A stretch of DNA of 51,792 nt from an uncultured Clostridia bacterium. Lineage in GTDB: Bacteria > Bacillota > Clostridia > Oscillospirales > Ruminococcaceae. A model generated the notes under the pieces. That model saw only the letters and a program-made list of their open reading frames with translations, was not told where the DNA came from and did no database searches. Positions 8,425 through 49,093 of the stretch are shown here, one piece after another (the first letter of the stretch is position 1; every line of letters starts with the position of its first letter). The DNA lies in contig CANPWL010000011.1 in the NCBI GenBank assembly GCA_947584375.1, positions 1 to 51,792 of the forward strand, read 5' to 3'. The position numbers and the translations under genes were made by a program.

Positions 8425-10506
8425 TTAATATTCACTGTTAAAGCTGTCGGTTTCAGAAAGCTCAATATCAACATCTATATCGCCTACAAAGATCTTATTA
8501 TCCTTTCCGAGCGATTCTGGAATTATCGAGAATGTATTGGAAATACCGTCCTGAGCGTCTTTGAACGGAAGCTTTGAAACAGATTTTAATGATGCAACAG
8601 CACCGTTGCTGTCACGGTTGTGCATAGGGTTTGCACCGGGTGCGAACGCTTCTCCTCCCTTGCGTCCGTCGGGCGTAGAGCCTGTATTTTGTCCGTAGAC
8701 AACATTTGACGTAATAGTTAGTATGGAAGTTGTAGGTATGCCGCCCCGATAGGTATGGTTTCCTTTAATGTAGTTCATAAATATGTGGACTATTTCGCCG
8801 GCGATTTCATCTACTCTGTCATCATCATTGCCGTATTTAGGAAAATCTCCTTCGACTTCATAATCTATTGCTATGCCTTTTTCGTTTCTTATAGGTTTTA
8901 CTTTTGCATATTTTATTGCAGACAGTGAGTCTGCAACAACAGAAAGACCTGCAATTCCTGTTGCAAACCATCTTGTAACCTTCTTGTCGTGGAGAGCCAT
9001 TTGTATTCTTTCATAGCAATATTTATCGTGCATATAGTGAATGATATTCAATGCGTTTACATAAACCGAAGCCAGCCATTTCATCATATCCTTAAACTTA
9101 TCCATAACCTCTTTATAGTCAAGGTATTCTGAAGTGATTGGTCTGTATTTTGGTCCGATTTGCTTCATTGAGATTTCATCCACACCGCCGTTTATGGCAT
9201 ATAACAAGCATTTTGCGAGATTTGCTCTTGCCCCGAAGAATTGCATTTCCTTACCTATTCTCATAGAGGATACACAGCAGGCAATTGCATAATCGTCTCC
9301 ATGAGTAACTCTCATAAGATCGTCGTTTTCATATTGGATCGAAGAAGACTCAATTGAAGTTTTTGCACAGAATCTTTTGAAATTGTCAGGGAGATTTACT
9401 GACCACAGAATAGTAAGGTTAGGTTCGGGAGCGGTGCCTAGATTTTCAAGAGTGTGAAGATAACGGAATGACATCTTCGTGACCATATGGCGTCCGTCGA
9501 CGCCGATACCTCCTATTGATTCTGTAACCCAAGTAGGATCTCCTGAGAACAGCTCATTATATTCTGGAGTTCTTGCAAATTTTACAAGTCTGAGTTTCAT
9601 TATAAAGTGGTCGACAAACTCTTGAATTTGTTGCTCTGTAAAAGTACCGTTTTTAAGGTCACGCTCGGCGTAAATGTCAAGGAAAGTTGAGGTTCTTCCA
9701 AGCGACATTGCAGCACCGTTTTGTTCTTTAACAGCCGCTAAGTATGCTAAGTATGTCCACTGGATAGCCTCCTGTACGTTTTTGGCAGGCTTAGAAATGT
9801 CAAATCCGTAAATTTTACCAAGCTCGATAAGCTCGCCTAATGCCCGTATTTGTTCAGAAAGCTCTTCTCGTTCACGAATAACGTCAGAGTACATAGTTAT
9901 TCTTGTTGAATCCTTTTGGTGCTGTTTATCCTCAATAAGTTTGTCCACTCCGTAAAGAGCAACTCTTCGGTAGTCTCCTATAATTCTTCCTCTGCCGTAA
10001 GCGTCAGGAAGTCCTGTTATAATGTGGCTGGAACGGCAGGCTCTCATTTCCGGTGTATATGCATCAAATACTCCTTGATTGTGGGTTTTTCTATGAACGG
10101 TATAAAATTTGCAGATATCAGGATCTACCTCGTAGCCGTTTTCTGAGCAAGCTTTCATTGCCATACGTATCCCGCCGTTAGGCTGAAGCGATCTTTTAAA
10201 CGGCTTGTCAGTCTGAAAACCGACTATTTTTTCCTTTTCTTTGTCGAGATAACCCGGACCGTGAGAGGTAATGGTTGAAATTATTTTTGTATCCATATCC
10301 AAAACTCCGCCTGCTTCACGTTCCCTTTTTGACAGTTCCATAACCTGCTCCCAAAGGTCTTTAGTAGCTTGCGTAGGTTCGGCAAGAAATTTGTCGTCGC
10401 CGTCATATGGACTATAATTTTTTTGTATAAAGTCACGTACATTGATTTCTTTTTTCCATATGCCGTAATTAAAATCGTTCCATTCTTCAAATTTCATAGT
10501 TTTCAT
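8425..10506 (-). CDS. pflB: Pyruvate formate-lyase catalytic subunit without its glycyl-radical domain
   Basis: 693 residues versus about 750-760 for complete PFL. The enzyme converts pyruvate and CoA to acetyl-CoA and formate. The catalytic cysteine pair is present (C410-C411 in [10 protein letters not shown]), as are [16 protein letters not shown]-type and [15 protein letters not shown] segments of the PFL barrel. The protein stops after [18 protein letters not shown] and an acidic tail, exactly where normal PFL enters the C-terminal radical domain; no RVSGYA motif follows. That domain is encoded by the separate gene at 7827-8078. The reading frame is intact up to the stop, so this looks like a stable gene split rather than a sequencing error. 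First gene of the operon; the leader from the predicted promoter is about 200 bases. Confidence 0.93.
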
Positions 10507-10663: not shown

Positions 10664-10679
10664 ACACAATATATAGTGG
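10664..10679. promoter_or_regulatory. NrdR-box-like palindrome 1 upstream of PFL
   Basis: The 16-mer ACACAATATATAGTGG matches the published NrdR consensus acaCwAtATaTwGtgt at 15 of 16 positions. It lies 158 bases before the PFL start codon. Confidence 0.65.
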
Positions 10680-11015: not shown

Positions 11016-11031
11016 ACACAATATATAGTAT
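11016..11031. promoter_or_regulatory. Third NrdR-box-like palindrome, isolated
   Basis: ACACAATATATAGTAT matches the NrdR consensus at 15 of 16 positions. A possible half-site (ACTATTAGT, 11057-11065) follows but is about 4 bp out of register with the other pairs. The target is unclear: it is 510 bases from PFL and 172 bases from the ddl promoter. Confidence 0.45.
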
Positions 11032-11187
11032 TTTTTCATAGTAAAAAATATAGCTTACTATTAGTTAAAACACCTGATAAACTTTACTAAGCTAAATTAT
11101 ATTTCGTAGTTTTATACATTAAAAATATATAATTATTTCTATATTCTAAAGAGATATGTTTGTTTATTTTAGACATATAGTCCGTTG

Positions 11188-11216
11188 TTGCAAAGAAAAT
11201 CGGTTTATGTTATACT
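11188..11216 (+). promoter_or_regulatory. Promoter of the ddl-murI operon
   Basis: TTGCAA (11188-11193), 17 bases, TATACT (11211-11216); predicted start near 11223, giving a 50-base leader. Confidence 0.65.
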
Positions 11217-11272
11217 ATTATAGTATTGAATATTTCAGCTGTTGGCTGATAATGGATACAAGGAGGATTAGA

Positions 11273-12340
11273 ATGGCAAAAACAAGGGTTGCCGTTATAT
11301 TCGGCGGCGTGTCAAATGAGCATGAGATTTCGCTTTTGTCTGCTACGAATATTATTAACAATATACCACGAGACAGATATGACGTTGTTTGTATAGGAAT
11401 AACTAAAAAAGGACGATGGCTTCTATATATAGGCGACACATCAAAAATTGCCGACGGCTCATGGGAACAAGACAGTGATAATGTTTCCTGTATTCTTTCG
11501 CCTGATCCAATTCATAAAGGATTTATTGCCATTTTGAACGATGGTCAGATCCAGCCCGTTAAGGTTGACGTTATTTTTCCTGTGCTTCATGGCAAAAACG
11601 GTGAGGACGGTACTATTCAGGGTCTTTTCACGTTGTCGAAGATACCTTTTGTCGGATGTGACTGTATTTCTTCCGCAAACTGTATGGATAAGGAGATCAC
11701 ACATATTATTCTTCAGGCGCATGGGATCAAGACGGCAAAATGGATGTCAATAAACAGCTATGACATTGAGAGAATAGATAAGATCGCAGATAAAATGGAA
11801 AAGAACTTAGAATATCCTATGTTTGTTAAACCTGCAAACTGCGGTTCATCGGTGGGGATCTCAAAGGTAAATAACAAAGAGGAGTTAGTAAACGGAATAA
11901 AGAAAGCTTTTGCTCATGATAAAAAGGTAGTAGTTGAAACCGGCGTCAAGGGTATAGAATGTGAGTGTGCTGTTATGGGAAATTGCGGTGCCATTGCATC
12001 TACGGTTGGTGAGATCGATTCGGCGAATGAATTCTATGATTACGAAGGCAAATATCAAAGCGATGAATCCCGTACATATATTCCTGCACGAATTAGTGAG
12101 GACAATATTTTTAAAATAAGACAAACAGCTCTTAAGGCTTATTCGGCTATGGGATGTACAGGTCTTGCAAGGGTAGATTTTTTCCTAACTGACGACGGTG
12201 AGATTATATTAAATGAGATAAATACAATTCCGGGTCATACTGCTATCAGTATGTATCCGAAGCTTATGGAATATGAGGGACTTTCTCCTTCAGAACAGAT
12301 ACACAGACTTATTAATTTAGCATTTGAGGCACAGAGATAG
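11273..12340 (+). CDS. ddl: D-alanine--D-alanine ligase
   Basis: 355 residues. The cytoplasmic ATP-grasp enzyme joins two D-alanines for the peptidoglycan stem. Visible motifs: VIFGGVSNEHEISLLSA at the N-terminus, VLHGKNGEDGTIQG, the ATP-grasp segment MFVKPANCGSSVGISK, and ARVDFF ... ILNEINTIPGHT near the C-terminus. The omega loop reads EFYDYEGKY with the Tyr typical of ordinary D-Ala-D-Ala ligases, so it is not a VanA-type D-Ala-D-Lac ligase. Start ATG 11273 follows AAGGAGG; the longer reading from 11156 crosses the predicted promoter and is rejected. The stop codon directly abuts the murI start, so the two are translationally coupled. Confidence 0.95.
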   Translation: MAKTRVAVIFGGVSNEHEISLLSATNIINNIPRDRYDVVCIGITKKGRWLLYIGDTSKIADGSWEQDSDNVSCILSPDPIHKGFIAILNDGQIQPVKVDVIFPVLHGKNGEDGTIQGLFTLSKIPFVGCDCISSANCMDKEITHIILQAHGIKTAKWMSINSYDIERIDKIADKMEKNLEYPMFVKPANCGSSVGISKVNNKEELVNGIKKAFAHDKKVVVETGVKGIECECAVMGNCGAIASTVGEIDSANEFYDYEGKYQSDESRTYIPARISEDNIFKIRQTALKAYSAMGCTGLARVDFFLTDDGEIILNEINTIPGHTAISMYPKLMEYEGLSPSEQIHRLINLAFEAQR

Positions 12341-41671: not shown

Positions 41672-41685
41672 GTTGCATTTGCAAC
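41672..41685. promoter_or_regulatory. GTTGCA-N2-TGCAAC palindrome at the fprA promoter
   Basis: GTTGCATTTGCAAC. Its reverse complement is identical to the nrdD site at 48194-48207. With the predicted -10 TATATT (41708-41713) the start is near 41720, placing the palindrome centre at about -41.5. Confidence 0.7.
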
Positions 41686-41689
41686 AGAA

Positions 41690-41718
41690 TTGAAAAATTC
41701 AATATGGTATATTAATAT
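41690..41718 (+). promoter_or_regulatory. fprA-rbr promoter region
   Basis: Two overlapping readings: TATATT (41708-41713) with a poor -35 (CAGAAT), as in an activator-dependent promoter, or TTGAAA (41690-41695), 17 bases, TAATAT (41713-41718). The palindrome just upstream favours the first. Confidence 0.5.
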
Positions 41719-41754
41719 ACAGAAAACAACCTTAAATTGGGTAATATAAAACTA

Positions 41755-41792
41755 GTGAGGAGGAAATGCTTCATTTAAAGCATTAATTAAGC
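41755..41792 (+). promoter_or_regulatory. Ribosome site, hairpin and mini-ORF before fprA
   Basis: A strong GTGAGGAGG (41755-41763) lies about 30 bases before the fprA start, much too far for direct use. Between them ATGCTT (41766-41771) pairs with AAGCAT (41778-41783), which would bring the two to about 11 bases. The same bases also encode a six-codon ORF (ATG 41766, stop 41784-41786). Confidence 0.5.
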
Positions 41793-42998
41793 ATGTCGGC
41801 AATTAAAATAACAGATAACTTATATTCAGTAGGAATTTTAAATCCTGCAATGAGAATTTTTGACGTAATAATGAGAACAGACTACGGAACTTCTTATAAT
41901 TCATATATTTTAAAGGGAAAAGAAAAGACTGCGTTGATTGAAGTAAGCCACGCTAACTTTTTTGATTCATATTTGAACAATATAAAAGAGGTATGCGAGC
42001 CGTCAAGCATAGACTATATCATTCTAAATCACTGTGAGCCCGACCACAGCGGAGCATTAGCAGATATTTTAAAGCATTGCAATGCTAAGATCGTATGCAC
42101 AAGAGCAGGCTCTAACTTTCTGAAAAACATCACTAACAGTGACAGCGTAGATTATATGATAGTCAATGACGGGGATACTCTTGATTTAGGCGGCGTTGAG
42201 CTGAAGTTTATACCTGCGGCGTTTCTTCACTGGCCTGATTCAATGTTCACATACTGTGAAAGCGAAAAAGTGTTGTTTTCCTGCGATGTGTTTGGCTGTC
42301 ACTATTGCGAGCCGTATATGTTTGATAAGTTCATAGCTTATGACAAGTCGTATGAAATCGCATTAAAAGGTTATTACGACGTTATTTTCGGACCGTTCAA
42401 GTCATTTGTAACAGCAGGTATGAAAAAGATCGAGGGTCTTGAGTTTGACACTGTTTGTCCAAGTCACGGACCTATTCTTACAAAGAACGGCAAGCTTAAT
42501 AGTGTATTAGAAAAATACAGAGAGTGGAGTTCTCAACCTAAAAAGGACAAGAAAGTCATCCCTGTGTTTTACTGTTCGGCATACGGAAATACCGCAAAAG
42601 CGGCTTGTGCCATAAGCAAGGGAATTTCTAAAGCTTCTGATGATTTGGAAACAAAGGTCTATGATATAAACGATTATGATTTAACTGAGCTTGCGAAAAT
42701 TATAAATTCAAGCGACGCTTTCGCTATCGGTTCGCCGACAATAAACAGCGATGCGGTCGCACCTGTATGGTCGCTTATAAGTACTATTGATGCTATCAAC
42801 AACCGTAAGAAAAAGGCTCTTGTATTTGGTTCTTACGGCTGGAGCGGAGAGGCTGTTCCAAACCTTATCGGCAGGCTAAAGGGAATAAAAAATGATGTAT
42901 TCGGCGAAGGCTTTAAGTTCTGCTTTGTTCCGACTGATGAGGATTTAAAGGCTGCCGAAGACTTGGGAGAAGAATTTGCAAAAGCTGTTTTAGGCTAA
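41793..42998 (+). CDS. fprA: Flavodiiron protein (A-type flavoprotein, O2/NO reductase)
   Basis: 401 residues. It reduces O2 to water (or NO to N2O) at a diiron site using FMN. The metallo-beta-lactamase-like N-domain has the diiron motif H80-x-E82-x-D84-H85 (NHCEPDHSG), FLHWPDSMFTY, SCDVFGCHYC and SHGPIL. The C-terminal flavodoxin domain (about 255-401) starts with PVFYCSAYGNTAKAA. No fused rubredoxin, so electrons probably come through a rubredoxin domain such as that of the neighbouring reverse rubrerythrin. Start ATG 41793 gives the standard N-terminus but has an odd leader. Likely cotranscribed with the rubrerythrin 60 bases on. Confidence 0.95.
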   Translation: MSAIKITDNLYSVGILNPAMRIFDVIMRTDYGTSYNSYILKGKEKTALIEVSHANFFDSYLNNIKEVCEPSSIDYIILNHCEPDHSGALADILKHCNAKIVCTRAGSNFLKNITNSDSVDYMIVNDGDTLDLGGVELKFIPAAFLHWPDSMFTYCESEKVLFSCDVFGCHYCEPYMFDKFIAYDKSYEIALKGYYDVIFGPFKSFVTAGMKKIEGLEFDTVCPSHGPILTKNGKLNSVLEKYREWSSQPKKDKKVIPVFYCSAYGNTAKAACAISKGISKASDDLETKVYDINDYDLTELAKIINSSDAFAIGSPTINSDAVAPVWSLISTIDAINNRKKKALVFGSYGWSGEAVPNLIGRLKGIKNDVFGEGFKFCFVPTDEDLKAAEDLGEEFAKAVLG

Positions 42999-43058
42999 GG
43001 ATAAAGATTATAACACTGATGTGTTAATAATAAATAATATATTGAGGAGGAAAATATT

Positions 43059-43610
43059 ATGGCAAAATGGATTTGTCCGGTATGCGGATATGTTCACGAG
43101 GGTGACACACCTCCGGAGAAATGCCCGCAGTGCGGAGTTCCGGGAGAGAAATTTAACAAGGCTGAATCGGCTGAAATCACATGGGCTGACGACCACAAGG
43201 TTGGCAGTGCTCAGGGATTGGATCCTGAGGTCGTTCAAGGTCTTAAAGATAATTTCAACGGTGAGTGTTCAGAAGTCGGAATGTATCTTGCAATGGCAAG
43301 AGTAGCATTCAGAGAGGGTTATCCTGAGGTAGGTCTTTACTACGAGAAGGCAGCTTATGAGGAGGCAGAGCACGCTGCTAAATTTGCAGAGCTTCTCGGC
43401 GAAGTTGTTACAGACTCTACTAAGAAGAATCTTGAACTCAGATATATGGCTGAGAACGGTGCCTGCGAAGGTAAGTTAATGCTCGCTAAGAAGGCTAAAG
43501 AGCTTGGATACGACGCTGTTCACGACACAGTTCACGAAATGGCTAAGGACGAGGCTCGTCACGGACGTGCTTTCAAGGGCTTGCTTGACAGATATTTCTC
43601 AGGTAAGTAA
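43059..43610 (+). CDS. Reverse rubrerythrin
   Basis: 183 residues. The order is rubredoxin domain first (C6-x2-C9 and C22-x2-C25, [12 protein letters not shown] and KCPQCG) and ferritin-like diiron domain second ([39 protein letters not shown]), the reverse of classic rubrerythrin. Such proteins act as NADH-dependent peroxide and O2 reductases in Clostridia, usually with a flavodiiron protein as here. GGAGG precedes ATG 43059. The operon probably ends at 43736-43765. Expression probably depends on the palindrome at 41672. Confidence 0.95.
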
Positions 43611-43657
43611 GTTACATAGTAAAGGTTAATTTAGAGGATAGGTAATCTATCCTCTCT

Positions 43658-43733
43658 GGGTGTAGATAAAGCCTTTTTAGGGGCATGCCCTGCAAGAGAG
43701 GGCTGCCCCTAAAAATATACTTTATATACACCC
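43658..43733. repeat. 76-bp near-perfect inverted repeat after the rubrerythrin gene
   Basis: Nested arms: GGGTGTA-G-ATAAAG (43658-43671) with CTTTAT-AT-ACACCC (43720-43733); TTTTTAGGGGCA (43674-43685) with TGCCCCTAAAAA (43704-43715); and GCCCT with AGGGC inside. It is a cruciform-sized palindrome without ORF, like a small MITE or structured RNA. Confidence 0.75.
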
Positions 43734-43735
43734 TG

Positions 43736-43765
43736 AGACCGAAGAATAATCTTCGGTCTTTTTTT
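43736..43765 (+). terminator. Terminator of the fprA-rubrerythrin operon
   Basis: AGACCGAAGA (43736-43745), ATAA loop, TCTTCGGTCT (43750-43759), T-run to 43765. Confidence 0.9.
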
Positions 43766-43786
43766 GTGCTGTATTTGCAAGAATAA

Positions 43787-44665
43787 TTACTTAGCTTGTG
43801 CTTTTCTGTTATTATAAAGAAAATTAACGATTGCCATAGCCACAATTAAAGCATATCCCAAAAAACTCCAAGCGTCGGGAATCTGGTTGAAAATAAAGAA
43901 CGAGAAAAGGGTAGTAAAAATGATCTGCGTGTAGTCGTAGATTGAGATTTCTCTCGCAGGGGCGTATACATACGCAGCGGTAATTGTGAACTGTCCGCCT
44001 GCGGCAGACGCTCCGCAAAGGAGAAGAAATATTATCTGTTTGAGGGTCATAGGTGTGAAATTAAATATCAGATAGGGAAGTGTTACAAGGCAGGAAAAAG
44101 TCGAAAAGAAAAATACTATAAACGGACCTTTAACACCTCGGTTTCCCAAAACTCTTACAAACGTATACGCCACTCCTGCGGAAAATCCGCTGAATAAACC
44201 AATCAAAGAGGGGAGTAGATCGGCATTTATCAGCGAAGGCTTTATTACAAAAAGACTTCCGATAAACGCTATAAGAACTACAAGCCCCTGAAAAGGCGTA
44301 AACTTTTCTTTTAAGATAAAGTATGAGCAGAGTATCGCAAAGAACGGAGACATCTTGTTAAGTATTGACGCGTCCGACAATACAAGATGGTCCACAGCAT
44401 AGAAGTTGCAGAGGATTCCTGCTGTTCCGAATGATGCACGAAGAATTAAATACTTAATATCTCCTTTATGAATCTTAAATGCGCTCTTATCACGAAGAAG
44501 TATGATAAGAGCAAATATAAGTGCAACGAAGTTTCTGAAAAAGCTTTTTTGAACAGACGGAATATCGCCTGCCAGCTTTATAAAAACTCCCATCAGACCG
44601 AACATAAACGCTGACAGGATTATATATATAATACCTTTGTATTTTGAATTAATATTTAATTTCAA
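43787..44665 (-). CDS. EamA/DMT-family transporter
   Basis: 292 residues with ten hydrophobic helices in two EamA repeats (first about 5-140, second about 150-285). Family members export amino acids or metabolites or import nucleotide sugars; the substrate is not deducible. The start is TTG 44665: GAGGAG lies eight bases upstream, whereas the ATG nearer to it is followed by a stop after one codon. It is a single-gene unit; upstream is a small palindrome (CACCAAAGCCTTGGTG, 44710-44725) that could be an operator or leader hairpin. Confidence 0.8.
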   Translation of the reverse strand: MKLNINSKYKGIIYIILSAFMFGLMGVFIKLAGDIPSVQKSFFRNFVALIFALIILLRDKSAFKIHKGDIKYLILRASFGTAGILCNFYAVDHLVLSDASILNKMSPFFAILCSYFILKEKFTPFQGLVVLIAFIGSLFVIKPSLINADLLPSLIGLFSGFSAGVAYTFVRVLGNRGVKGPFIVFFFSTFSCLVTLPYLIFNFTPMTLKQIIFLLLCGASAAGGQFTITAAYVYAPAREISIYDYTQIIFTTLFSFFIFNQIPDAWSFLGYALIVAMAIVNFLYNNRKAQAK

Positions 44666-44741
44666 AACATTTTCTCCTCGTTTATTTTAATACAGTAATA
44701 ATATATTAGCACCAAAGCCTTGGTGTGTCAAACAGATATTA

Positions 44742-44773
44742 ATTGATAATTGAGAATGGATAATGGACAATTA
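44742..44773. repeat. Third copy of the dispersed TTGA-AATGGATAAT repeat
   Basis: Units TTGATAAT-TGAGAATGGATAAT-GGACAATTA. Same family as 4211-4240 and 13645-13660, again in intergenic DNA between two minus-strand genes. Confidence 0.65.
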
Positions 44774-44786
44774 AGTATAAAAATAA

Positions 44787-44824
44787 AGGCGAACATAATT
44801 GCATTTCACAAAATTTGTTCGCCT
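44787..44824 (-). terminator. Terminator of the nrdDG-dut operon
   Basis: AGGCGAACA (44787-44795) and TGTTCGCCT (44816-44824); on the minus strand followed by TTATTTTTAT. Confidence 0.75.
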
Positions 44825-44888
44825 AATTATTTTTACTTTTTATCTGCAAATAACCTTTGTCAATCTTTATAAAGGCACATTTCGCCGC

Positions 44889-45335
44889 TCACCGTTGCCC
44901 TGTTGATCCAAAGCCTCCTGTGCCCCTTGCAGTGTCCGAAAGCTCGTCTGCCTCAACAAATGATGCCTTTAAAAACGGTGCAATAACAAGCTGTGCAATT
45001 CTCTCGCCATCTGAAATGGTCTGCACTGTGTTTGAGTGGTTGTGAAGTGCTACCATTATCTCTCCTCGGTAATCAGCGTCAACAACGCCTACTTTATTTG
45101 CAGGGGCAAGACCTTTCTTTGAGGCAAGTCCCGAACGTGCATAAATAAGACCTGCATATCCCACAGGTATCTCCATAGAAAGGTATGTGTGTACCATAAC
45201 AGTTTCGCCCGAAGCAATTTCCATGTCTCCGTCAGTAACTGCATATAGATCACAGCCTGCTGAAAAGTCCGAGCCGTAGGTCGGGATCACCGCACGGTCG
45301 TTGAGCTTTTTGATTTTTACTTCCTCAATTTTCAT
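44889..45335 (-). CDS. dut: dUTP diphosphatase
   Basis: 148 residues, trimeric dUTPase. It hydrolyses dUTP to dUMP, guarding DNA from uracil and feeding dTMP synthesis. Motifs: SDFSAGCDLYA (1), YARSGLASKKG (2), GVVDADYRGEI (3), GERIAQLV (4), and the P-loop-like RGTGGFGSTG (5) at the C-terminus. AGGAG precedes ATG 45335. It is the third gene of a run with nrdD and nrdG, so dNTP production and clean-up are made together. Confidence 0.96.
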   Translation of the reverse strand: MKIEEVKIKKLNDRAVIPTYGSDFSAGCDLYAVTDGDMEIASGETVMVHTYLSMEIPVGYAGLIYARSGLASKKGLAPANKVGVVDADYRGEIMVALHNHSNTVQTISDGERIAQLVIAPFLKASFVEADELSDTARGTGGFGSTGQR

Positions 45336-45359
45336 AATTTCTCCTGTTTGATTTATTCT

Positions 45360-45905
45360 TTATATCATATTAAGTCTGGGGTCGTCATCATTGATAACGC
45401 AAACCTTGCCCTCTTTAAGCGATTGCTGAACGTCGATTATTCTCTGATTTTCCGAGCCTCTGAACTTGATATTCAGATTCTTTTTTTCTTCGATAAACTC
45501 GCCGTCAACCAGTATGTCTATACAGGATAAAAGTTCTTTTGTACATTCGCAATTGACTTTGCTTTTTTTCGTTAGATCCTTGTCGAACAGATACCCCGAA
45601 TAGCACCAGATGCTCTTTTGCGGGAACTCAGCTTTTACTCTTTTGACAAATGACGCAAGAGAGCGTTGGTTTTCGACCTCGAAAGGCTCGCCGCCCAAAA
45701 GCGAAAAACCGTCAATGTATTCAGGCTTCATCGCTTCAAGAATTTCATTCTCAACATCAGGGGTAAAGGGTTTTCCGTAATCAAAATCCCAAGTTTCGGG
45801 ATTAAAACAGCCTTTGCAGTGGTGAGAACAGCCGCTTACGAACAGTGAGACCCTGACTCCCGGACCGTTTGCAATATCATATTTTTTTATTGTTGCATAA
45901 TTCAT
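45360..45905 (-). CDS. nrdG: Anaerobic ribonucleotide reductase activating enzyme
   Basis: 181 residues. Radical SAM activase that puts the glycyl radical on NrdD. Cluster motif C26-x3-C30-x2-C33 (GCSHHCKGCFNPE), NGPGVRVSLF before it, SLLGGEPFE for SAM. GGGAG precedes ATG 45905. It lies 24 bases after nrdD and 24 bases before dut on the same strand, a tight operon. The C-terminal part (RGSENQRIIDVQ) is normal for the family. Confidence 0.96.
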   Translation of the reverse strand: MNYATIKKYDIANGPGVRVSLFVSGCSHHCKGCFNPETWDFDYGKPFTPDVENEILEAMKPEYIDGFSLLGGEPFEVENQRSLASFVKRVKAEFPQKSIWCYSGYLFDKDLTKKSKVNCECTKELLSCIDILVDGEFIEEKKNLNIKFRGSENQRIIDVQQSLKEGKVCVINDDDPRLNMI

Positions 45906-45929
45906 ATATGTTCTCCCTTGATATAAATA

Positions 45930-48065
45930 TTACAGATGGAGAACTCTTGACTTGATTTCTTTAGTTTTACCGACATTCCAGAAGTTTTCGCCTAAATAAC
46001 CGCAGGTTCTTCTGGTGACGTTCATCTTAGCGTGATCCTTGTTGTGGCACTGAGGACATTCCCACTCGTTGTCGTCGTTGATGATTATCTCGCCGTCATA
46101 GCCGCATGTCTGACAGTAGTCGCTCTTTGTGTTAAATTCAGCGTACTGAATGTTGTCATAGATAAATTTAACAGCGTTTGAAAGAGCTTTCAGGTTGTTT
46201 CTCATATTAGGGATCTCAACGTAGGAGATCGCTCCGCCTGAAGAAATTTTCTGGAACTGACTTTCAAATTTAAACTTGTCAAAAGCGTCTATATGTTCAC
46301 GAACGTCAACGTGATATGAGTTTGTATAATAACCCTTATCTGTAACATCTTCAATTGTTCCGAATTTTTCTTTGTCTATTCTTGCAAAGCGGTAGCAAAG
46401 TGATTCAGCAGGAGTGCCGTAAAGAGCAAATCCTATGCCTGTGTCTGCTTTCCACTTATCACAGGTCGACCTTAATTTATTCATAAGTCTGAGTGCAAAA
46501 TCAAGACCCTCCGGTTCTGTCTGAGGAACGCCCTTCATCAGTTTAGTAACCTCGTAAAGACCGATGTATCCGAGAGAAATTGAAGAATATCCGTTCATAA
46601 GATATTTGTCAATTTTTTCGCCTTTTTTAAGTCGTGCGATAGCGCCGTACTGCCAGTGGATAGGAGAAACATCACTCTTTGTTCCCATTAGCGCATTGTG
46701 CCTGCACATAAGAGCTTCATAGCATAATTCAAGACGCTCGTCTAGAAGCTTCCAGAACTTTTCTTCATCGCCCTTTGCAATTATACCGATTTGCGGCAGA
46801 TTGAGAGAAACAACGCCCTGATTGAATCTTCCTTCAAATTTGTAGTTGCCGTTTTTGTCCTTCCATGGTGCTAGGAAAGAACGGCATCCCATAGGCGAAA
46901 ATACGTTACCCTCGTAATTTTCACGCATCTTTTTAGCTGAAATGTAGTCAGGATACATTCTCTTTGCCGAGCACTTAACAGCAAGCTGAGTCAAATAGTC
47001 GTACTTTCCGCCCTTTAAGCAGTTATTCTCGTCAAGAACATAGACAAGCTTAGGAAATGCAGGCGTAACGTAAACGCCCTGTTCGTTCTTTATACCTTGA
47101 AGTCTTTGCTGTAAAATCTCTTCAATGATCATTGCGTTTTCTTCAATGTATTTATCATCTTCTTCAAGGTGTAAGAACAATGTAACAAACGGTGACTGAC
47201 CGTTTGTGGTCATCAGTGTGTTAATCTGATACTGAATGGTCTGAACACCGGATTTAAGCTCGCTTTTAAGACGTTCATCAACAAGCTTGTCAATGGTTTC
47301 CTGAGGGGTGTTCTTTCCGCAGGCTTTTTTGATAGCCTTTTCAAACTTGTCCTTTGATCTTCTAAGATATTTTCCCAAATGCTTTAAATCAACAGATTGT
47401 CCTCCGTATTGGCTTGAAGCAACAGCGGCAATTATCTGAGTAGTGATGGTACAAGCTACCTGAAAGCTTTTAGGACTTTCAATAAGTTTACCGTTCATAA
47501 CAGTACCGTTATCAAGCATATCGCCGATATTTATAAGACAGCAATTGAAAATAGGCTGAAGAAAATAATCTGCGTCATGAAAATGGAATATACCCTCCTC
47601 ATGAGCCTTTGCCAGTTTCTCAGGAAGCAGAACTCTGTTTGTTAAATCCCTTGAAACCTCGCCTGCTATATAGTCTCTTTGAGTAGATGCAAGAATAGTA
47701 TTTTTATTTGAGTTTTCCTCAGCAAGCTCTTTATTCTCGTTCCTGATAAGACTTAAAATTGAATCGTCTGTTGTATTTGCTTTACGAACCAATGCTCTCT
47801 GATAACGATAAATAATATAAGTCTTAGCAAGTACGAAAAGCTCAAACTCCATCAGCTTTTCTTCAATAATATCCTGAATGTCTTCAACAAGCATTCTTTT
47901 TTTGTTTTTTCCTTCAATGTAGGTCAAAATAGACTCGATCTGCGTATCTGTTGCCCTCTCATTTTCCGCTACTTCAGCATTTGCCTTTTTTATAGCGATA
48001 ACGATCTTGCTGCGATCATAATCTACACTGCTTCCGTCTCTTTTTACAACCTTCATAGCTGCCAT
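45930..48065 (-). CDS. nrdD: Anaerobic (class III) ribonucleoside-triphosphate reductase
   Basis: 711 residues. It makes dNTPs without oxygen using formate or a thiol as reductant. An N-terminal ATP-cone (VVKRDGSSVDYDRSKIVIAI, about 1-90) gives allosteric control. The barrel follows, then a C-terminal zinc site (CQTCGYDG and CPQCHNKD) and the radical loop RRTCGYLG with Gly689, ending in EIKSRVLHL. AAGGAG precedes ATG 48065. Upstream are an NrdR-like box pair and a GTTGCA palindrome. First gene of nrdD-nrdG-dut. Confidence 0.97.
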   Translation of the reverse strand: MAAMKVVKRDGSSVDYDRSKIVIAIKKANAEVAENERATDTQIESILTYIEGKNKKRMLVEDIQDIIEEKLMEFELFVLAKTYIIYRYQRALVRKANTTDDSILSLIRNENKELAEENSNKNTILASTQRDYIAGEVSRDLTNRVLLPEKLAKAHEEGIFHFHDADYFLQPIFNCCLINIGDMLDNGTVMNGKLIESPKSFQVACTITTQIIAAVASSQYGGQSVDLKHLGKYLRRSKDKFEKAIKKACGKNTPQETIDKLVDERLKSELKSGVQTIQYQINTLMTTNGQSPFVTLFLHLEEDDKYIEENAMIIEEILQQRLQGIKNEQGVYVTPAFPKLVYVLDENNCLKGGKYDYLTQLAVKCSAKRMYPDYISAKKMRENYEGNVFSPMGCRSFLAPWKDKNGNYKFEGRFNQGVVSLNLPQIGIIAKGDEEKFWKLLDERLELCYEALMCRHNALMGTKSDVSPIHWQYGAIARLKKGEKIDKYLMNGYSSISLGYIGLYEVTKLMKGVPQTEPEGLDFALRLMNKLRSTCDKWKADTGIGFALYGTPAESLCYRFARIDKEKFGTIEDVTDKGYYTNSYHVDVREHIDAFDKFKFESQFQKISSGGAISYVEIPNMRNNLKALSNAVKFIYDNIQYAEFNTKSDYCQTCGYDGEIIINDDNEWECPQCHNKDHAKMNVTRRTCGYLGENFWNVGKTKEIKSRVLHL

Positions 48066-48165
48066 CTCCTTATAAACATCTTATTATTTGTTTTCTCTCT
48101 TTATATATTTTTGTGTATGCAATAGTTATAGTTGTTTTGTATTATTATTTTACGAGATTGATATA

Positions 48166-48194
48166 AGTATATGATTTTTATTTCGTTATGTCAG
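48166..48194 (-). promoter_or_regulatory. Proximal nrdD promoter
   Basis: On the minus strand CTGACA (48194-48189), 17 bases, TATACT (48171-48166); start predicted near 48159. The GTTGCA palindrome abuts the -35. Confidence 0.6.
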
Positions 48195-48207
48195 TTGCAA
48201 ATGCAAC
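48194..48207. promoter_or_regulatory. GTTGCA-N2-TGCAAC palindrome at the nrdD promoter
   Basis: GTTGCAAATGCAAC, identical (reverse complement) to the fprA site. Centre at about -41.5 from the predicted nrdD start, the class II activator position of Crp/Fnr proteins. Confidence 0.7.
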
Positions 48208-48221
48208 TATTTTAATAATAA

Positions 48222-48237
48222 ATACAATATATAGTGA
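48222..48237. promoter_or_regulatory. NrdR box 1 upstream of nrdD
   Basis: ATACAATATATAGTGA matches the NrdR consensus at 14 of 16 positions and begins 157 bases before the nrdD start codon, the same distance as at PFL. Confidence 0.7.
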
Positions 48238-48253
48238 TTTTTTATGGAAAGAA

Positions 48254-48269
48254 TACATATAACTAGTGG
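48254..48269. promoter_or_regulatory. NrdR box 2 upstream of nrdD, 32 bp from box 1
   Basis: TACATATAACTAGTGG keeps the conserved right half (TAGTG). It overlaps a possible distal nrdD promoter (TTGAAT 48285-48280, 18 bases, TATATG 48261-48256). Confidence 0.55.
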
Positions 48270-48376
48270 TTTAATAACCATTCAAAATTAACTAAATGTT
48301 CTTAAATTGTAGATTGTATACAAAAATCGCACATAAAGTTTGGGCAAGTTTTTTTAACAAAGGTAAATTTCAAATT

Positions 48377-48406
48377 GTTGCAATTGCAACTGTTATATGA
48401 TACTAT
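48377..48406 (+). promoter_or_regulatory. Promoter and autoregulatory palindrome of the Crp-like gene
   Basis: The perfect palindrome GTTGCAATTGCAAC (48377-48390) overlaps the -35 TTGCAA (48378-48383); 17 bases on is TACTAT (48401-48406). Binding here should block transcription. Confidence 0.65.
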
Positions 48407-48436: not shown

Positions 48437-49093
48437 ATGTTAATAATGCCTGAAACAAAAATATTTGATAACATAACTGAAGATGAGATAAACAAGATGA
48501 AAAATTGTTTTAAAGCAGTGAATAGAAAATACATTGAGGAGGAGAGAATTAATAATATTGAAGACGGGAGTTTAGGAATTGTATTATCAGGGGTAGTTGA
48601 AATTATCAGATTTGATTTTGACGGCAACAGAACTATTTTAGAACGCATAAATGAAAACGGAATATTCGGGAGACTGTTTTTCTCACAAATTGACGAAGGC
48701 GATGTACAGATTATTTGTGCAACTGATACTGAGGTTATGTTTGTAGATTACGAACATTTAGTAAAGCAGTGTCATAATGCTTGCAGTCATCATAGCACAC
48801 TTATAAGAAATATGCTCTCAATAGTATCTGAAAAATCCATAAAACTAAGTAACAGGGTAGAGGTTCTTAGTCAGCGAACGCTTAGGAAAAAGCTAATTAC
48901 ATATTTTAATATGATTTCAAAAGAAACAGGCAAGAAAAGTATAGTTATACCGTTTTCTTTAAGCAATCTTTCTGATTATCTTTGTGTTGACAGAAGTGCA
49001 ATGCTGAGAGAAATGAAAAAAATGCGTGATGAGGGACTTATTGATTCTCACGCTAAGAAGGTAACTATACTATATGATCAGACTATGTATTAA
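48437..49093 (+). CDS. Crp/Fnr-family transcriptional regulator
   Basis: 218 residues from ATG 48437 (215 from ATG 48446; neither has a good ribosome site, so the start is uncertain and translation probably weak). The N-terminal cyclic-nucleotide-binding-like beta roll (about 20-115) lacks the cAMP-binding RES motif, and there is no N-terminal Cys array for an Fnr-type Fe-S cluster. A dimer helix follows and a C-terminal winged helix (SLSNLSDYLCVDRSAMLREM, recognition helix VDRSAMLREMKKM). Two cysteines in KQCHNACSHH could sense redox or metal (speculation). It is divergent from nrdD. Three GTTGCA palindromes at fprA, nrdD and its own promoter are its likely targets. It may be a relative of clostridial HcpR-type regulators, not proven. 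Confidence 0.8.
   Translation: MLIMPETKIFDNITEDEINKMKNCFKAVNRKYIEEERINNIEDGSLGIVLSGVVEIIRFDFDGNRTILERINENGIFGRLFFSQIDEGDVQIICATDTEVMFVDYEHLVKQCHNACSHHSTLIRNMLSIVSEKSIKLSNRVEVLSQRTLRKKLITYFNMISKETGKKSIVIPFSLSNLSDYLCVDRSAMLREMKKMRDEGLIDSHAKKVTILYDQTMY

Follow-up and report, generated by a model that had tools for sequence, protein, structure and literature searches.

A 14-bp palindrome at fprA, nrdD and a Crp/Fnr-like regulator gene points to a probable self-regulated redox switch in Clostridia

The 51,792-nucleotide stretch analyzed here (contig CANPWL010000011.1 of an uncultured Clostridia bacterium of the Ruminococcaceae; termed the window) carries the gene of a Crp/Fnr-like regulator of 218 residues and three copies of the 14-bp palindrome GTTGCA-NN-TGCAAC, located at the promoters of the flavodiiron gene fprA, the anaerobic ribonucleotide reductase gene nrdD and the regulator gene itself. 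Comparison between genomes establishes the box, its placement, conservation and spacing, the conserved ligand set of the regulator and the link between regulator and box. Based on these features we propose, with a probability of about 0.75, a circuit in which the regulator would sense its signal through a Cys/His set, act as class II activator of fprA(-rbr) and nrdD(G), and repress its own gene through the same box. Strict anaerobes of the gut must protect and replace glycyl-radical enzymes (NrdD, PFL) when O2 or host nitric oxide (NO) arrives, and to our knowledge the switching of such genes in Clostridia is poorly known. The outcome is a regulator, a 14-bp site, a fixed promoter layout and predicted metal-sensing residues, and many related regulators would be covered by it as well.

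Box copies and promoter layout in the window and the genus

Exact matches to GTTGCA-NN-TGCAAC start at positions 41672, 48194 and 48377 of the window, confirming the three copies reported in a preliminary description of this DNA. As stated there, they lie at the promoters of fprA, of nrdD and of the gene for the Crp-like protein; rbr follows fprA and an nrdG-type gene follows nrdD. Box 1 (41672..41685, plus strand, GTTGCATTTGCAAC) lies at the fprA promoter and box 2 (48194..48207, minus strand) at the nrdD promoter. The latter reads GTTGCAAATGCAAC on the plus strand and GTTGCATTTGCAAC on the strand of nrdD, so that the two are identical 14-mers, as had been described. Box 3 (48377..48390, plus strand, GTTGCAATTGCAAC) belongs to the regulator promoter. 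Allowing up to two mismatches yielded eight matches in the window, whereas 100 shuffles averaged 1.91 and never exceeded 5.

The predicted −10 element of fprA, TATATT (41708..41713, plus strand), is found 22 nt past box 1, and the same distance separates box 2 from the predicted −10 element of nrdD, TATACT (48166..48171, minus strand). If the −10 hexamer spans positions −12 to −7, this gap places the box at −48 to −35 with its centre at −41.5. At the −35 position of fprA the window carries the hexamer CAGAAT. For the regulator gene, the predicted −10 element TACTAT (48401..48406, plus strand) follows box 3 after only 10 nt, corresponding to a box centre of −29.5, and the hexamer TTGCAA at 48378-48383 within the box doubles as −35 element with a 17-bp spacer to TACTAT.

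We compared this layout across a genus set of 15 genomes, the own genome included. The motif was present in all 15, with 46 exact sites versus 8 for a reversed-pattern control, and 36 of the 46 were located at nrdD, the regulator, fprA or rbr: 24 between nrdD and the regulator, nine at fprA and three at rbr, the other ten lying inside the open reading frames (ORFs) of other genes. For five regulators whose mechanically called ORF stayed open past the box, the box was counted as upstream of the aligned start. In an alignment of 40 promoter sides, in which a shared box was read in both directions, the distance from box to −10 was exactly 22 nt in all 26 target promoters, namely TATATT at fprA (9/9), TATACT or TATTAT at rbr (3/3) and TATACT or TATAAT at nrdD (14/14). 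The centre of −41.5 given earlier for fprA and nrdD thus holds throughout the aligned genus targets. The regulator promoters exhibited a TANNNT hexamer (TACTAT, TATTAT, TAAAAT and others) exactly 10 nt past the box in 14 of 14 cases, in agreement with the earlier assignment of a centre near −29.5 overlapping the −35, and the first half of the box contained TTGCAA or TTGCAT 17 bp from the −10; taken as −35 with a 17-bp spacer, these hexamers make the box of the regulator its −35 element. The −35 place was occupied by CAGAAT or CAGAAA at fprA, and at nrdD by CTGACA in the ten closer genomes and by CTGCTT or CTGCAA in the other four.

Ten genomes, including the own one, contain two boxes between nrdD and the regulator, 181–183 bp apart. 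Four more divergent genomes, with regulators of 49–56% identity, show a single exact box common to both genes, and a fifth divergent genome (G005) has such a shared box with one mismatch. The two arrangements suggest that a site once common to both genes later split or duplicated. Nine of the ten closer genomes showed the fprA box with its 22-nt gap, the exception being G008, an assembly of 79% completeness. Named close kin include uncultured Clostridia from rabbit gut and a Ruminococcus sp. In three divergent members (L050, L051, L066) rbr carries its own box with the same 22-nt layout; in the clade of the own genome rbr lies behind fprA instead, the same function being placed under a different promoter.

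The whole genome (1.72 Mb) contains one exact copy beyond the three of the window (C19:9106, spacer GT), located within the ORF of a HAD-type hydrolase. Requiring a W-W spacer leaves three sites in the genome and none for the reversed-pattern control. A genome-wide search for weaker targets with one mismatch returned none, all ten such sites falling within mechanically called ORFs. With only three W-W sites, and the one-mismatch copies within ORFs, the regulon judged by motif comprises three promoters. A chance origin of the boxes was rejected on their placement and spacing, not on their number in the genome.

fprA (41793..42998, plus strand; PF19583, PF00258) encodes a flavodiiron protein of the O2/NO reductase type, composed of a flavodiiron ODP and a flavodoxin domain. 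The rubrerythrin gene rbr (43059..43610, plus strand; PF02915, PF21349) begins 60 bp past fprA, and both are probably carried on one transcript. nrdD (45930..48065, minus strand; PF13597 and NF006732 above cut-off) encodes an anaerobic (class III) ribonucleotide reductase with an NRDD domain and an ATP-cone. Downstream of it lies an nrdG-type activase gene (45360..45905, minus strand; PF13353, Fer4_12), whose name rests on its position next to nrdD; its Radical_SAM score is slightly below cut-off. The regulator gene (48437..49093, plus strand) matches cNMP_binding and HTH_Crp_2 above the gathering scores.

The regulator, its Cys/His set and the box at its own gene

The regulator shows the hallmarks of the Crp/Fnr superfamily, a cNMP-binding-type β-roll and a Crp-type helix-turn-helix. 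Its recognition helix, DRSAMLRE, comprises residues 185–192, where we take Ser187 to occupy Crp position 181 and residue 191 to correspond by position to Arg185 of CRP. The AlphaFold2 model, with a mean predicted local distance difference test score of 92.4, places C24 at the end of helix A, and C112, C116 and H119 at the hinge preceding and starting the C (dimer) helix. Together, Cys24, Cys112, Cys116 and His119 probably form a metal or iron-sulphur (Fe-S) site sensing O2, NO or redox damage.

To extend the comparison, we scanned named genomes with the regulator alignment, obtaining at least 589 pattern matches and at least 583 relatives, of which the best 80 were retained; these belong to the Clostridia, the Bacilli and, in one case, the Negativicutes. 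Adding 30 and 60 regulators from genome sets brought the total to 170, a number that counts close relatives and a few duplicates. All four of C24, C112, C116 and H119 are present in 162 of them. The more general box GTTG-N6-CAAC was found at the regulator's own gene (−320 to +20) in 146 of the 170, compared to 0.7 in shuffled upstream DNA, and was about equally common among regulators with Arg191 (88/101) and those without (58/69).

The letters of this box vary with the recognition helix. We compared base 5 in 125 relatives, having dropped 24 without box and 21 with an unequal base 5 in the two halves. Base 5 was C in all 80 relatives carrying Arg191 and in 1 of the 45 lacking it, the second group mostly exhibiting GTTGGA, GTTGTA, GTTGTT or GTTGAA; among the dropped 21, C occurred in one half for 7 of 8 with Arg191 and 4 of 13 without. 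On a tree calculated without the helix columns, residue 191 changed three times and base 5 four times, yielding three independent residue/base pairs on all branches and one on supported branches. An independent evolution of this pairing was set aside, as these pairs are too few for significance. With so few changes on the tree, the residue/base code is a consistent pattern resting on class counts with common ancestry. In a sample of the family, for which usually one regulator was read per genome, we counted 35 W-W sites versus 7 for the control; where the regulator was of the DR....R type, 7 of 11 genomes had a site. When the same sample was searched for GTTGGA, hits came from 4 of 9 genomes whose regulator is ERSA/non-Arg191 and from 4 of the 56 lacking such a regulator, in only loose agreement with the helix class.

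These data bear on the question of whether another DNA-binding protein owns the box, the regulator being merely one of its targets. The genome does encode three further HTH_Crp_2 matches, one of which (C21) scores above the family cut-off. However, both the recurrence of the box at the regulator's own gene in the relatives and the variation of base 5 with the recognition helix argue for the regulator itself, rendering foreign ownership very improbable. The motif tracks the regulator in the family; the "local regulon" of the preliminary description is rather one case of a Bacillota-wide group, whose linked targets depend on lineage.

Targets outside the genus and the proposed mechanism

Gene neighbourhoods were counted for 161 regulators with at least 1.2 kb of upstream DNA, the upstream reach varying between loci. 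Divergent neighbours of the 97 Arg191 regulators were nrdD (41), fprA (12), frdX (7), hcp (4) and rbr (3), with nrdD in 22 of 78 cases outside the own genus. For the 64 non-Arg191 regulators they were frdX (49), hcp (18) and fprA (4), and never nrdD. Here, frdX is our name for the ferredoxin-like neighbour, given by analogy with the HcpR papers. Non-Arg191 sister regulators (e.g. L020, L026, L027, L153, L156) are often divergent from frdX and hcp, with a GTTGGA, GTTGTA or GTTGAA box that lies just upstream of their start and keeps about 22 nt to the −10 of frdX; these sisters are possibly the HcpR type of Clostridia.

A W-W site was present in 38 of 40 genomes holding Arg191 relatives (61 sites versus 1 for the control). 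We analyzed the contexts of 90 out of 92 sites from these 40 genomes and an order-level scan, the own genome apart and G312 and G313 left out. The identified genes beside them were nrdD (18), fprA (5), frdX (4), rubrerythrin (4), nitroreductase (3), PFL (2), hcp (2) and desulfoferrodoxin (1), in addition to the regulator (35). For PFL, rubrerythrin, desulfoferrodoxin, nitroreductase, ferredoxin and Hcp, Pfam confirmed one or two examples of each. This is a coherent target set. Counting identified targets only, a TANNNT hexamer was located 21–23 nt past the box in 38 of 39 non-genus promoters (shuffles: mean 5.8, maximum 13). The best hexamer at 16–18 bp matched TTGACA at only one to three of six positions in 37 of these 38 target promoters. 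In a redundancy-reduced set, the best mean −10 score was obtained at 22 nt for the nrdD side (28 sequences), followed by 10 nt, and at 10 nt on the side of the Arg191 regulators themselves (74). In the non-Arg191 class, the side facing frdX (43) scored best at 22 nt, with 17 nt nearly equal owing to overlapping TATA repeats, and the non-Arg191 regulator side (52) showed no clear −10 offset.

We infer that the Crp-like protein binds GTTGCA-WW-TGCAAC directly and as a homodimer. Bound at −41.5 of fprA(-rbr) and nrdD(G), it would recruit RNA polymerase as a class II activator, a proposal based on the position of the box before a good −10 and, at most such promoters, a poor −35. At its own gene the bound protein would cover the −35 and block polymerase, providing negative feedback. 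A predicted cofactor at the Cys/His site would be switched by O2, NO or redox change, whereupon the regulator would bind the box.

Several observations weigh against this proposal. The bare genome-wide count of four exact sites is unremarkable next to three matches for the reversed-pattern control, and with one mismatch allowed the genome count (14) falls below its control (27). The remarkable part is the placement, so that the genome-wide search put forward in the preliminary description bears out the promoter association for three of four exact copies and not the raw number. Within the genus, an exact fprA box was not found in 6 of 15 members. Since 32 of the 40 Arg191 loci were already known to carry an exact box, the enrichment in those genomes arises in part from selection; at the order level, 147 genomes chosen regardless of regulator contained 34 W-W sites versus 16 for the control, spread over 25 genomes and including the three of the own genome. 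In the family sample, the site also occurs in 11 of 54 genomes whose regulator read belongs to another class. For 41 of the 90 contexts neither an identified target nor the regulator was adjacent (17 without a gene in the expected orientation, 24 with unidentified genes only), and a TANNNT at 10 nt was detected at only 12 of 35 non-genus regulator sides (shuffles: mean 1.0, maximum 4). Finally, one PFL promoter matches TTGACA at six of six positions and is possibly independent of an activator, and CTGACA at nrdD of the ten closer genomes agrees with TTGACA at five of six positions, a fair −35, so that an activator is possibly unneeded there.

The nrdD hexamer would also suit a protein that represses all three promoters, covering the −35 at fprA and nrdD as well as at its own gene until O2 or NO releases it. 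With its last base at −35 the box does touch the −35 hexamer, and CTGACA is a workable one. Yet a fixed centre near −41.5 combined with a degenerate −35 in most targets is the layout of a class II activator; a repressor would have no need of one spacing across many unrelated genes, and the regulator's own promoter is spaced differently. We therefore consider general repression unlikely. The activator/autorepressor circuit of the preliminary description accordingly stands in its geometry, base-exact in the genus and recurring outside it, but it is not local, and at nrdD of the ten closer genomes a repressor reading is possible.

The activator proposal is least secure on the question of whether the signal turns activation on or off. 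In a variant compatible with it, an FNR-like holo form would be active without O2 and switched off by O2 or NO, supporting anaerobic deoxynucleoside triphosphate synthesis. The cysteine/histidine set fits an Fe-S cluster, the targets include the glycyl-radical enzymes NrdD and PFL that work only without O2, and holo-FNR is one of the family members that the AlphaFold2 model resembles. Against this, the remaining targets are O2/NO defence enzymes, and frdX is the usual divergent neighbour in the non-Arg191 class. Moreover, Clostridioides difficile HcpR activates frdX-hcp upon NO exposure, according to the available text of PMC12915319, which would favour activation by NO or O2 damage if that protein belongs to this group. 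Overall, NO or O2 damage turning activation on is the most likely signal by analogy with HcpR, while the FNR-like variant is plausible but less probable.

A further element, termed NrdR-box-like on the basis of what we take to be the NrdR consensus (ACAATATATAGTG type), lies between box 2 and the regulator (48222..48237, no strand assigned) with two mismatches to that consensus. The NrdR-like 16-mer has four matches in the window versus 1.23 expected, a number reached by 3 of 100 shuffles, and its core with up to one mismatch occurs 12 times in the genome compared to 5 for the control. For the nine genomic core matches outside the window, no tie to glycyl-radical genes was established. Elements of the ACAATATATAGTG type are also located at 10664-10679 and 11016-11031. 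These two are flanked on one side by a pflB-like gene on the minus strand (8425-10506) and on the other by a gene for D-Ala-D-Ala ligase (11156-12340).

Comparison with known systems

Regulators of the Crp/Fnr type are known, and so are class II activation and self-repression. In searches confined to open-licence PMC papers and not extending to RegPrecise itself, the motif returned unrelated papers only, and none of the titles or abstract openings listed described the regulator. Within that scope we found no description of the box or of the Cys3His set, nor of the nrdD/fprA/PFL regulon or a division of the boxes into GTTGCA and other types. We give even odds to an independent origin, within the Crp/Fnr superfamily, of sensing through cysteines (C24 plus C112/C116/H119), probably by way of an Fe-S cluster. 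It would be common to self-regulated switches of Clostridia, Bacilli and Negativicutes, and a change of residue 191 accompanied by one of base 5 would set the GTTGCA type, with its nrdD/fprA/PFL programme, apart from types with an hcp/frdX programme (GTTGGA, GTTGTA, GTTGAA).

NrdR, a zinc-ribbon/ATP-cone repressor, likewise regulates ribonucleotide reductase genes, but it is unrelated to the regulator described here and recognizes a different box. The best profile match among solved structures was Lmo0753 (7t8o), a Listeria regulator that we take to be PrfA-like. The PrfA box is also 6-2-6 in form with other letters. Lmo0753 differs in its presumed box, and in the alignment it lacks the Cys3His set.

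FNR activates from −41.5 and binds its cluster through C20, C23, C29 and C122. The regulator resembles it in the Crp fold, the box centre at −41.5 and the cysteine-based sensing proposed here, but FNR's ligand set and its four-cysteine Fe-S motif, with three cysteines near the N-terminus and a fourth ahead of the C helix, are absent, C24 being the sole conserved N-terminal cysteine. Consistent with the preliminary description, the letters of the box at all three promoters, GTTGCA-WW-TGCAAC, differ from the boxes of Fnr (TTGAT-N4-ATCAA, as in PMC1274295) and Crp (TGTGA-N6-TCACA), and Ser187 stands at the place of Glu181 of CRP. An identity of the box as FNR or CRP site was rejected on these letters and residues.

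The nearest solved sequences also include Porphyromonas gingivalis HcpR (9day) and Thermotoga maritima 1o5l. As reported in the available text of PMC12750200, P. gingivalis HcpR senses NO via heme, with Met68 and His149 implicated, and activates an NO-defence gene. It shares the Crp fold with the regulator, whereas the alignment leaves C112 without a partner and sets C116 and H119 opposite Met and Tyr.

A close parallel in the literature is the branch of Crp/Fnr proteins named HcpR2 (Rodionov et al. 2005, PMC1274295). The available text of that study correlates the residues at Crp positions 180 and 181 with bases of the site, describes its regulators as lacking an FNR-type cysteine motif, and mentions other motifs, without spelling them out there, for HcpR2 proteins with Ser or Gln at 181. 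As far as this text goes, both are regulators of redox and NO-defence genes in anaerobes and share a 14-bp palindrome of the same outline, GTAACnnnnGTTAC in HcpR2 versus GTTGCnnnnGCAAC here. They differ in the residue at Crp position 181 (Pro in HcpR2, Ser187 here), in bases 3–4 of the box (AA versus TG), in the linked targets, which are hcp/frdX for HcpR2 and nrdD, fprA and rbr in the window, and in the Cys3His set conserved here. The GTTG boxes may represent the other-motif kind of the HcpR2 proteins with Ser at position 181.

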